Position numbers and translations under genes: made by a program. The notes beneath the pieces were generated by a model that was not told the origin of the DNA, did not search any database, and worked only from the letters and a program-made list of their open reading frames with translations. Below, piece by piece: positions 3,001-9,000 of a stretch of DNA of 64,000 nucleotides. The number at the start of each line of letters is the position of its first letter. The first letter of the stretch is position 1. The stretch lies in the NCBI RefSeq assembly GCF_037975245.1, contig NC_092565.1, positions 14,537,499 to 14,601,498 of the forward strand, in the 5' to 3' direction. The DNA is from Apostichopus japonicus (lineage: Eukaryota > Echinodermata > Holothuroidea > Aspidochirotida > Stichopodidae).

Positions 3001-6000
3001 TTCAGTTGAGAACATTCCACAGTCAAATAAGCCTATCGTTGATTAACAGACTTTATATGTATAGAGCTGCAGCACTTTGTTGCCTGTTGTTGTCACGATC
3101 GGCGTTCCAAGTTCCAAAACAGCCTTTTCGATAAACATTTACTAGCTACAGTTGTATCAAAGACAAATACTGGCTATGGTTGTATCAAAGACATTTCTGG
3201 CCTATCTTTGTATCTACAAGTATCAGAAGTTGAAAAGTAAGACTACTAAGACGGGGGGGGGGGGGGAGGGGGAGGGGGCGTTGATGGAGTGATGTGTATA
3301 CGCAAATAAGATTAAAAGTGCTTCCGCCGCCCTTGTGTACCTAATTTTAATACATTATGTATTATTGAATTACGTACTATTTTAACTCGTTTGTTTTTTG
3401 GGGTTTAAAAGTGATATTGAATGAGGTGTCCCAAGTTAGCAAGAGGCCAGGGAACCAGAATGAACACTAGGGAAGGGCCGTTTCCGGCCATCTGGGGTTT
3501 TTTTTTCTTGTACGCTCCGCGCCAACCGGATGGTGGCGCTCCGCTCAGATAGTCGTGCCTACAACTTTGAAAATCCATATCAATCGCAAAAAATGCTCCC
3601 CCCCCCCCTTTCAAATTCCTGGTTACGTCGCTGTCGTCTTATACCAATAAATATACTGAAGAGATGGATACATTCTTACCTGCAAGTAGAAAATTGGATG
3701 CAACATTTGAATAAAACCATATTTTAATTTGTTTTTGTTTATATTTTTATTTAAATGCGCATCTATATGAGACCGCATCTGATTACTTCAAGTTAAAAAA
3801 AAAACCTGCACAAACAATCATTGCATTACGTTATTTTCAGGTTTACTCACACGGAGCGTTTGGCTTATGACGTTCCGCTTTCCAGTACACTGTGCTCGTG
3901 TAATACTGTGAAGCGATCTGTAAAATATGACGTGTCCATGTATTACCAGACCTTGGGAAGCTTGCGAGGGCTACCAGTGGGAACGAGTCAATCCTAGCAT
4001 TTTGTATTGTATCCGATACGGTAGAACAGTTATCAAAATCTGTAGAACAATTAGCAATATCCGTAGAACAATTAGCAATATCTGTAGAACAATGAGCAAT
4101 ATCTGTGGATAGTTATCACTATCTGTAGAACAATTAGCAATATCTGTAGAACAATAAGCAATATCTGTAGAACAATTAGCAATATATGTAGAACAATTAG
4201 CAATATATGAAGAACAGTTATCAGTATCTGTAGAACAATTATCAATATATGTTGAACAATTAACAATATCTGTAGAACAGTTATCAAAAGCTGTTGAACA
4301 ATTAGCAATATATGTAGAACAATTATCAATATCTGTAGAACAGTTAGCAATATCTGTAGAACAATTAGCAATATCTGTAGAACAATTAGCAATATATGTA
4401 GAACAATTAGCAATATCTGTAGAACAGTTAGCAATATCTGTAGAACAATTAGCAATATATGTAGAACAATTAGCAATATATGTAGAACAATTAGCAATAT
4501 CTGTAGAACAATTAGCAATATATGTAGAACAATTATCAATATCTGTAGAACAGTTAGCAATATCTGTAGAACAATTAGCAATATCTGTAGAACAGTTATC
4601 AATATATGAAGAACAGTTATCAGTATCTGTAGAACAATTATCAATATATGTTGAACAATTAACAATATCTGTAGAACAGTTATCAAAAGCTGTTGAACAA
4701 TTAGCAATATCTGTAGAACAGTTTTCAGTATCTGTAGAACAATTAGCAATATCTGTAGAACAGTTATCAGTATGTGTTGAACAATTATCAATAACGGTAG
4801 AACAATTAAGCAATATCTGTTGAACAATAATCAAAATCTGTTGAACAATTAGCAATATCTGAAGAACAGTTTTCAGTATCTGTTGAACAATTATCAATAA
4901 CGATAGAACAATTAGCAATATCTGTAGAACAATTAGCAATATATGTAGAACAATTAGCAATATCTGTAGAACAGTTAGCAATATCTGTAGAACAATTAGC
5001 AATATATGTAGAACAATTAGCAATATATGTAGAACAATTAGCAATATCTGTAGAACAATTAGCAATATATGTAGAACAATTATCAATATCTGTAGAACAG
5101 TTAGCAATATCTGTAGAACAATTAGCAATATCTGTAGAACAGTTATCAATATATGAAGAACAGTTATCAGTATCTGTAGAACAATTATCAATATATGTTG
5201 AACAATTAACAATATCTGTAGAACAGTTAGCAATATCTGTAGAACAATTAGCAATATCTGTAGAACAGTTATCAATATCTGTAGAACAGTTTTCAGTATC
5301 TGTAGAACAATTAGCAATATCTGTAGAACAGTTATCAGTATGTGTTGAACAATTATCAATAACGGTAGAACAATTAAGCAATATCTGTTGAACAATAATC
5401 AAAATCTGTTGAACAATTAGCAATATCTGAAGAACAGTTTTCAGTATCTGTTGAACAATTATCAATATCTGTTGAACAATTATCAATAACGGTAGAACAG
5501 TTTTCAGTATCTGTAGAACAATTAGCAATATCTGTAGAACAGTTATCAGTATCTGTTGAACAATTATCGATAACGGTAGAACAATTAGCAATATCTGTTG
5601 AACAATTATCAATATTTGTAGAACAATTAGCAATATTTGTAGAACAGTTATCAGTATCTGTTGAACAATTATCAATAACGATAGAACAATTAGCAATATC
5701 TGTTGAACCATTATCAATATTTGTGGAACAGTGAGCAATATCTGTTGAACAATTATCAATATGTGTTGAACAATTAGCAATATTTCTAGAACAGTTATCA
5801 GTATCTGTTGAACAATTAGCAATATCTGTAGAACAATTATCAATATATGTAGAACAGTCATCAGTATCTGTAGAACAATGATCAATATCTGTAGAACAGT
5901 TATCAGTATCTGTAAAACAATTAGCAATATCTGTAGAACAATTAGCAATATCTGTAGAACAGTTATCAGTATGTGTTGAACAATTATCAATAACGGTAGA

Positions 6001-9000
6001 ACAATTTAGTAATATCTGTTGAACAAATATCAATATCTGTAGAACAGTTATTAGTATCTGTTGAACAATTAGCAATATATTTTGAACAATTAACAATATC
6101 TGTAGAACAGTTATCAAAAGCTGTTGAAGAATGATCAATAACGGTAGAACAATTAGCAATATATGTTGAACAATTAGCAATATTTGTAGATAAATTAGCA
6201 ATATCTGTAGAACAGTTATCAGTATCTGTTGAACAATTATCAATAACGATAGAACAATTAGCAATATCTGTTGAACAATTATCAATATTTGTAGAACAAT
6301 TAGCAATATCTGTTGAACAATTATCAATATGTGTTGAACTATTAACAATATCTGTAGAACAGTTATCAGTATCTGTTGTACAATTATCAATATCTGTAGA
6401 ACAATTATCAATATATGTAGAACAGTCATCAGTATCTGTAGAACAATGATCAATATCTGTAGAACAGTTACCAGTATCTGTAGAACAATTAACAATATCT
6501 GTAGAACAGTTATCAAAAGCTGTTGAACAATTAGCAATATCTGTAGAACAGTTTTCAGTATGTGTTGAACAATTATCAATAACGGTAGAACAATTTAGCA
6601 AAATCTGTTGAACAATTATAAATATCTGTAGAACAATTATCAATATATGTTGAACAATAAACAAAATCTGTAGAACAGTTATCAATATCTGTTGAACAAT
6701 TAACAATATCTGTAGAACAGTTTTCAGTATCTGTAGAACAATTAGCAATATCTGTAGAACAGTTATCAGTATCTGTTGAACAATTATCAATAAAGGTAGA
6801 ACAATTAGCAATATCTGTTGAACAATTATCGATATTTGTAGAACAATTAGCAATATCTGTAGAACAGTTATCAGTATCTGTTGAACAATTATCAATAACG
6901 ATAGAACAATTAGCAATATCTGTTGAACAATTATCAATATTTGTAGAACAATTAGCAATATCTGTTGAACAATTATCAATATGTGTTGAACAATTATCAA
7001 TATCTGTAGAACAGTTATCAGTATCTGTTGAACAATTATCAATATCTGTAGAACAATTATCAATATCTGTAGAACTGTCATCAGTATCTGTAGAACAATT
7101 AGCAATATCTGTAGAACAATTATCAAAATCTGTAAAACAGTCATCAGTATCTGTAGAACAATTAGCAATATCTGTTGAACAATTAACAATATCTGTAGAA
7201 CAGTTATCAGTATCTGTTGAATGATACAAATGGGTTGAGCTAAATTGGATCGATTCGGCTTTTGTAAGCAACAACAACAACATCATCGACAACAAATTTC
7301 TAATATAAACACAGGATATTAGGAGAATTGACATTTCTATCCCTGTAAAATCAAAGATTATACTGTAGACCGTGGAATATGCATACTTGTTTAGAAATTG
7401 TTGGGTTCATCCTTGTAAGAAATATACTTGAATTTAATATAGGCCTATATAGTCAACGCAAATGTTGGCAGATATGGAAAATTACCACACGAGTTTAATG
7501 ACCTACGTCGAATGTATTAAGCAGGCCTTGACAATTTCGTCAATAATTATTTGAAAGATATAAATGAAATCGGAAAGCAAAATGTGACAATTCTGTGCGG
7601 TCCACAACTATAGACCTACATATACTCATGTTGACATATAGGTGCGTACTACAGTCTTCACGGTATTTTGCTAACGTCAAACTATATTTTACTTTGTAAG
7701 ACCTGTCGATACACTCAGTCTGTTAGAAAGAAAAGTTGTAGTCTTATGGTAGAAATACCGTCCGGCAACCAGGACGTCTGCCGGTAGACCTAATTTAACA
7801 GCGGTTTTGTGAAAACGGTGCGACCTTTTTTCAACGGATGGTTGAGACGGCGTACCACACCATAAATAAATTATACACAACACACGCACTGCAAAGCATA
7901 TGTTCTTGACGATGCACTTGCTTCATTGTTTGTGATTGAAAGCCTCCCTTATTTTACACAGATTAAAGTGAACGAAAATCGAGCCCATCCGAAGTTGGTA
8001 TCCTTATTGAACTATATAAAGAGATCCATGAATATAATTCCATTATTCAAGTACTGTACACTAAAATAGCTCGCAGTTTGCAACATTACAATTGTAACTA
8101 CAAACTAAAATAGCTCGCACCTATACACAGTATAGTTTGAAACATTACAATTGTAACTACAAACTAAAATAGCTCGCACCTATACATAGTATAGTTTGCA
8201 ACATATGCATTGTAACTACAACATAAAATAGCTCGCACCTATACACAGTATAGTTTGCAACATTACAATTGTAACTACAAACTAAAATAGCTCGCACCTA
8301 TACACAGTATAGTTTGAAACATTACAATTGTAACTACAACATAAAATAGCTCGCACCTATACACAGTATAGTTTGCAACATTACAATTGTAACTACAAAC
8401 TAAAATAGCTCGCACCTATGCATAGTATAGTTTGAAACATTACAATTGTAACTACAAACTAAAATAGCTCGCACCTATACATAGTATAGTTTGAAACATT
8501 ACAATTGTAACTACAAACTAAAATAGCTCGCACCTATGCATAGTATAGTTTGAAACATTACAATTGTAACTACAAACTAAAATAGCTCGCACCTATACAT
8601 AGTATAGTTTGAAACATTACAATTGTAACTACAAACTAAAATAGCTCGCACCTATACATAGTATACTTGCAACATATGCATTGTAACTACAACATAAAAT
8701 AGCTCGCACCTATACACAGTATAGTTTGAAACATTACAATTGTAACTACAAACTAAAATAGCTCGCACCTATACATAGTATAGTTTGCAACATATGCATT
8801 GTAACTACAACATAAAATAGCTCGCACCTATACATAGTATAGTTTGCAACATATGCATTGTAACTACAACATAAAATAGCTCGCACCTATACACAGTATA
8901 GTTTGAAACATTACAATTGTAACTACAAACTAAAATAGCTCGCACCTATACATAGTATAGTTTGCAACATATGCATTGTAACTACAACATAAAATAGCTC

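Follow-up and report, generated by a model that had tools for sequence, protein, structure and literature searches.

Whether a tandem array that ends within a coding exon has grown out of that exon, or has reached it from the neighbouring intron, is the question raised by a 64,000-nucleotide (nt) stretch of the genome of the holothurian Apostichopus japonicus (G000:C5:14537499-14601498; hereafter the window, to which coordinates refer unless another location is given). Here a 21-nt tandem array runs without a gap into exon 2 of a sulfotransferase gene, gene A, and the predicted splice acceptor of this exon lies inside the terminal repeat unit. Our analysis suggests that the array is probably a mirage-type minisatellite, in which head-to-tail amplification began at the intron 1/exon 2 junction of this tandemly duplicated gene. 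A first-pass annotation of the window had proposed that the array arose from a splice acceptor together with the first codons of the exon. Growth from the boundary is indeed the most likely course, and a unit made of exon sequence only is favoured over one containing a copied intron end, although it is not proven.

Structure of the 21-nt array

Tandem Repeats Finder (TRF) placed the array at 4021-7221, with a period of 21 and 152.3 copies, and cyclic alignment with a unit table resolved 152 complete units on the minus strand (4027..7221), in agreement with the roughly 150 copies of the first-pass annotation. The unit consensus is TTCTACAGATATTGATAATTG, or ATATTGATAATTGTTCWACAG when rewritten in the register of the exon. 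The terminal unit (4047-4027) reads TTCTACAG|ATTTTGATAACTG and is followed by TTCTACCG within exon 2; it spans the predicted acceptor into the exon, confirming that the exon begins as the last repeat. Exon 2 itself (3851..4039, minus strand) was called from its homology to exon 2 of a paralogue, B, and from 28 genomic exon-2 matches, with a predicted acceptor ACAG|AT at 4040/4039 and a predicted donor CCGT|GTGAGT at 3850.

The units differ in both length and sequence. Four carry an extra base (22 nt; at 6612, 6023, 5392 and 4824) and one has lost a base (20 nt; at 4130). The minus-strand units carrying this 1-nt deletion (4090..4130) contain a stop in the exon frame just upstream of 4112, and in the penultimate unit (4048..4068, minus strand) the acceptor position is mutated to ACGG. 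The C and T of the CSTV codons of the gene A exon (TTCTACCGT) are present in 12 of the 152 units, as TTCTACCGTT, TTCTATCGTT or TTCTACCTTT. Exact repeats of at least 300 nt within the array, at an offset of 547 nt, show recent block duplication. No exact twin was found for 34 of the 152 units, including four of the five nearest the exon (4130, 4110, 4068 and 4047) versus one of the first five at the far end, a mild sign that the array has an edge on the exon side only.

Conserved position of the acceptor among paralogues

A genome search with exon 2 (671.6 Mb, 35 contigs) returned 28 matching places, at which acceptors were chosen by eye; distances were counted for 12 paralogues, with L007 unassigned and L015-L029 left out. 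The distance from the acceptor AG to the conserved Cys codon is exactly 11 nt in A, in B, in a newly found paralogue C, and in L006, L009, L012, L013 and L014, and it is 14 nt in L005 and L008 and 20 nt in L010 and L011. Intron phase at the exon 2 acceptor is identical in all 12. Since the AG in the terminal array unit sits at the conserved 11-nt distance, this acceptor is, by position, the ancestral acceptor of intron 1, and we regard the agreement as the chief support for the proposal made in the first-pass annotation.

Consistent with that proposal, B carries VERCSTVEDT at the equivalent place with no tandem array there, and CSTV is common to B and C, confirming it as ancestral coding sequence. 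Intron 1 of B and that of C have no such tandem array. A tandem-repeat scan around the 28 exon-2 places (periods of at least 4) found that only the array of gene A (L003) reaches the start of exon 2; two-copy repeats lie about 30 to 110 nt upstream of the exon-2 match in L011, L022 and L028.

Origin of the repeat unit

Exon 2 of paralogue C starts with ATCTTGAACGTTGTTCAACAG|TAGAGG, to which the unit consensus matches in register at 16 of 21 positions, and a unit variant, TTCAACAG, picked after C was seen, at 17. The consensus agrees with the exon start of gene A itself at 18 of 21 positions, with that of B at 12, and with those of ten more distant paralogues (L005-L014) at 6-10, with L007 at 8. 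The exon starts of C and A agree with each other at only 14 of 21 positions, indicating that the array units retain letters lost from the exon copy in A. When the match to C was held against non-array 21-mers of the window, none of 54,391 reached 16 or more in fixed register, and one of 7,769 did so when any rotation was allowed.

Two derivations of the unit may be considered from these sequences. In the favoured one, the unit would consist solely of the seven codons (21 nt) that open exon 2, and the acceptor-like TTCWACAG would represent the Ser-Thr codons of the exon; in paralogue C, the Cys-Ser-Thr codons (TGT TCA ACA GTA) hold such an acceptor-like string within the exon. In the other, which is possible, the unit would consist of the last 8 bases of the intron plus 13 bases of the exon, the classic mirage type. 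The resulting arrays would be identical provided that the two 8-mers resembled each other.

The array is nearly unique in the genome and is not a product of chance. With a 126-nt array probe, for which only the best candidates were scored, 32 of the 33 matches listed fall inside this array, and the one outside match among them (C2:10278741-10278857) is 73% identical, so a dispersed satellite or transposed minisatellite is not supported. This outside match belongs to another 21-nt array, with unit TATTCTACAGATGTTGTTGGC, lying within an intron of what we take, from comparison with a human fragment, to be a serine-palmitoyltransferase-like gene. It begins about 100 nt past one exon, stops well before the next and touches neither. 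Acceptor-like arrays can thus exist without exon contact, which calls for caution in interpreting AGs alone. At L062 3218-4330 (G000:C2), an intron of a serine-palmitoyltransferase-like gene holds a 21-nt array of TTCTACAG-type units together with a 22-nt array, clear of the exons.

Splice signals within the array

The first-pass annotation assigned an AG acceptor and a branch-point-like motif to every unit, and hence about 150 candidate 3' splice sites kept in phase by the 21-nt spacing. The array falls short of this in the number of AGs and in phase. The AG at unit positions 7-8 is kept in 103 of 152 units; a branch-point-like CTAAY occurs in 57 and GATAAY in a further 59. Neighbouring acceptors do keep phase locally, but the four 22-nt units and the one 20-nt unit break it, and by length 45 of the 103 AG acceptors share the phase of exon 2. 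Only three of the 103 read open into the exon, with first exonic bases at 4102, 4081 and 4039, owing to indels (the one-base deletion) and to the stop just upstream of 4112, which closes the frame for every more distant acceptor; 3 of the 103 could thus serve productively. Among the 21 unit positions, the acceptor G (kept in 115 of 152 units) ranks fourth in variability, and there is accordingly no sign that acceptors in the array are being maintained.

The strength of these sites was modelled with a position weight matrix (PWM) of 22 positions, built from 17 acceptors of the gene family that were picked by eye, with exon 2 of gene A excluded (leave-one-out scores 3.6-14.4). The 103 array AGs score 5.4 on average (range -0.4 to 11.4) and the terminal acceptor (4039) scores 6.3. 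For 2,627 background AGs on the minus strand of window 13001-60000, a set that contains the real acceptors of B and a 49-nt array, the mean is -6.1 and 2.0% reach 6.3. By this model, the array offers about 100 plausible if mediocre acceptors. Loss of the AG in the penultimate unit leaves 42 AG-free bases ahead of the terminal AG; 27 of the 103 acceptors have the same spacing, so that its favouring of the terminal site is suggestive only.

Proposed origin and alternative explanations

Taking as observed the anatomy of the array, an acceptor position kept among paralogues, the match in register with an exon start, the near-uniqueness and the decay of frame and AGs, we propose the following course for amplification from the boundary. 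The seed would have been nt 1-21 of exon 2 (D-x-x-x-C-S-T), with the YAG of the genuine acceptor at one end and the CAG formed by the exon's Ser-Thr codons at the other. Slippage between both CAGs would add whole 21-nt units, and each gain would create a new acceptor with phase and distance to the conserved Cys unchanged. Splicing at the last unit, presumably at the 4039 acceptor in vivo, would restore the original protein at any array length; surplus exon copies would in consequence turn intronic and drift freely, accumulating indels, stops and lost AGs. The slippage seed and the direction from exon to array are our inference. The array itself is most likely functionless. A bolder and distinctly tentative extension is an acceptor ratchet, in which the CAG of the unit makes every 21-nt gain a same-phase acceptor, so that the exon feeds the intron without limit while the protein is unchanged, and in which, for as long as the near units stay intact, a choice between 4081 and 4039 would lengthen the enzyme's stem by heptads bringing an additional Cys and an N-C-S sequon.

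The alternative that survives best, although we consider it unlikely, is that an independent intronic minisatellite grew up to exon 2 and then, through unequal exchange or gene conversion, imposed its own sequence on the opening codons. Several observations point this way or weigh against the course proposed above. In translation, gene A has Phe-Asp-Asn, as the array does, unlike the Glu-Arg common to B and C, and the letters shared only by the A exon and the array (GATAA, encoding Asp-Asn) could also reflect replacement of the exon start by array sequence. Unrelated minisatellites are present at the locus, and the TTCTACAG-unit 21-nt array in the serine-palmitoyltransferase-like gene lies in an intron away from exons. 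In an exon-edge test (three array units and 11 exon edges, giving 33 uncorrected comparisons of 200 shuffles apiece), the unit also aligned with the end of B intron 1 (TTGATGAATTGTTTTAGCAG) and with that of B intron 2, before exon 3, equally good alignments arising in 2 and 1 of the 200 shuffles, respectively; part of the unit similarity may reflect features general to 3' splice sites, and the classic mirage unit described above is accordingly possible. By PWM score, the terminal acceptor ranks no higher than 15th of 103. Finally, when intron 1 of B and C was aligned to the gene A sequence between its two intronic arrays in search of the original acceptor, nothing convincing was obtained, and the flanking introns are too diverged to locate it. 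Rewriting of the exon by an independent minisatellite needs coincidence, however, both for the in-register match of 16-17 of 21 positions to the exon start of C and for the agreement of TTCWACAG with the conserved Cys-Ser-Thr codons.

Considerably less probable is a functional splice cassette, in which 4102, 4081 and 4039 would be used alternatively to give isoforms with 3, 2 or 0 extra stem heptads. These are the very three of the 103 AGs that are open into exon 2, and 4081 outscores the terminal site in the PWM (7.8 versus 6.3), but 4102 scores only -0.4, loss of the penultimate AG leaves the terminal site with its 42 AG-free bases, 100 of the 103 acceptors would throw exon 2 out of frame or run into a stop, and the AG is conserved no better than other unit positions. 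A coding array, whether it extended exon 2 on the minus strand as a long Cys-rich repeat or encoded a protein of SVEQLAI heptads on the plus strand, is very improbable and was rejected on frame breaks: long open stretches exist (221 aa on the plus strand and parts of 475 aa on the minus strand), but several frames are open together because the unit contains few stops, and the frame is broken by the four +1 units, the one -1 unit and in-frame stops.

Comparison with known systems

The closest known counterparts are the amphioxus "mirage" minisatellites, described for Adh3 and the globins BflGb6 and BflGb9 (PMC3087553), with TnC and PGBD5 added later (PMC3902484). Their units are duplicated intron/exon boundaries, which in BflGb6 comprise the 3' end of an intron and the 5' part of exon 2; two haplotypes of BflGb6 carry 6 and 3 units, each 150-160 bp long, and Adh3 units measure 10-72 bp (PMC3087553). 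According to the same account, splice signals occur in many but not all mirage units, and reverse transcription PCR suggests normal splicing. The array of gene A resembles these mirages in that a tandem unit copies a boundary or exon edge, the terminal unit being the start of exon 2, and in that its units adjoin the copied boundary and many keep splice signals (the AG in 103 of 152). It differs in its far larger copy number (152 units of 21 nt), in a unit explicable by exon sequence alone, and in its host, an echinoderm rather than a lancelet. As judged from sequence, the array fits the anatomical definition of a mirage, and it has the look of a mirage of very large size in a non-lancelet host. 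No mirage outside lancelets was found in searches of an open-licence library; related human tandem-array introns are cited in PMC3087553. An array of this kind, which the first-pass annotation regarded as very unusual, is thus not without precedent: the earlier observation is sound in outline, its claims on count and phase went too far, and what it describes is a large new instance of a kind already known.

Two other systems offer partial parallels. In the antifreeze glycoprotein gene of notothenioid fishes, derived from trypsinogen, a 9-bp element straddling intron 1 and exon 2 was amplified (PMC3449122). A short element was likewise amplified at an intron 1/exon 2 junction here, with 21 nt in place of 9 bp. 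The repeats there form the coding sequence of the new protein, whereas frame breaks and stops show that this did not happen in gene A, in which in-frame translated repeats of that type are not seen (four +1 units, one -1 unit, the stop near 4112 and 3 of 103 acceptors open). Introns that arose from tandem arrays or internal duplications carrying splice sites have also been described (Zhuo 2007, in human; Gao and Lynch 2009; both as cited in PMC3087553). As in those introns, the copied segments carry splice signals and surplus copies end up in an intron; unlike them, no new intron position is created here, and an old intron is extended from its 3' side.

If this interpretation is correct, an echinoderm too has undergone exon-edge (mirage) amplification, with more than 150 copies and an apparently intact gene, and the locus provides a natural test both of how the spliceosome chooses one 3' splice site among about 100 similar ones and of intron lengthening from the 3' end.

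Gene A, its paralogues and other features of the window

All exons of gene A lie on the minus strand. Exon 1 is likely represented by 12563..12815, with an in-frame ATG at 12815 and a phase-1 donor AAAAAG|GTATAG, as suggested by weak similarity to B exon 1 in tblastn (E 0.003) and the matching phase-1 donor. Intron 1 (4040..12562), which contains the 21-nt and a 59-nt array, is about 8.5 kb long; its counterparts in B and C measure about 1.15 kb and 0.8 kb, respectively. Exon 3 (915..1139) was found by tblastn with B exon 3 (56% identity), and the start of exon 4 (1..81) is an open reading frame that continues beyond the window in L031. The four exons of B lie at 31550..38298 on the minus strand (38298-38055, 36901-36713, 34581-34357 and 31911-31550). 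Exon 2 of C is about 14.5 kb downstream of that of A, and C exons 2-4 are in L030. Full-length B matches Pfam Sulfotransfer_1 (5.9e-12) and Sulfotransfer_3 (5.3e-10); exon 2 alone gave no Pfam match. The coding exons of gene A are open, and the pairwise ratios of nonsynonymous to synonymous substitution (dN/dS; Nei-Gojobori, 240 codons) are 0.42 for A-B, 0.33 for A-C and 0.25 for B-C. With open coding exons and both of its ratios below 1, gene A looks maintained.

The exon 2 start of gene A (4039-3851) reads D-N-C-S-T, an N-X-S sequon that is lacking in B and C (R-C-S-T), and most array heptads would contribute one such sequon each.

Other minisatellites accompany this gene family. The 59-nt tandem array (8075-12478) occupies most of the remaining intron 1 of gene A, and its sense-strand units contain a donor-like TATAG|GTGCGAG; in the exon-edge test its unit gave no match to the 11 exon edges at 10 or fewer of 200 shuffles. 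The 49-nt array (about 30 copies, 34677-36162) lies in B intron 2 and stops 95 nt short of exon 3. As a candidate exon-edge array it was rejected, its single 13-nt match, at the end of A exon 3 (3 of 200 shuffles), being judged due to chance. A further paralogue has a 47-nt array of about 28 copies (L008 1-1329, G000:C4) some 170 nt downstream of its exon-2 match.

Elsewhere in the genome, the mitochondrial contig C35 (16,099 bases) has the gene order cox1-R-nad4L-cox2-K-atp8-atp6-cox3-S-nad3-nad4-H-S-nad5-nad6-cob-F, and the tRNAs P-Q-N-L-A-W-C-V-M-D-Y-G-L precede nad1-I-nad2; protein genes were assigned from their translations, and the 25 tRNA calls include a few that are evidently spurious. 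The same arrangement of blocks has been described for echinoids and Apostichopus (PMC7396427), which marks the host as an echinoderm, probably a sea urchin or sea cucumber. On a second contig, cox1 pieces with TGA codons occur at G000:C29:14745-31219 and perhaps reflect mis-assembly or nuclear mitochondrial DNA. In the window, Rfam and ARAGORN returned two tRNA predictions only, at 15.7 and 16.1 kb; these two tRNA-Cys (ACA) predictions belong to a 373-nt tandem duplication (15410-16210; TRF, 100% matches) flanked by TA runs. A reverse transcriptase reading frame (29616-31355, minus strand; RVT_1, E 6.4e-38) lies directly downstream of gene B, and an uninterrupted reading frame for a rhodopsin-like G protein-coupled receptor is located at 46653-48161 on the minus strand (7tm_1, E 2.5e-57).

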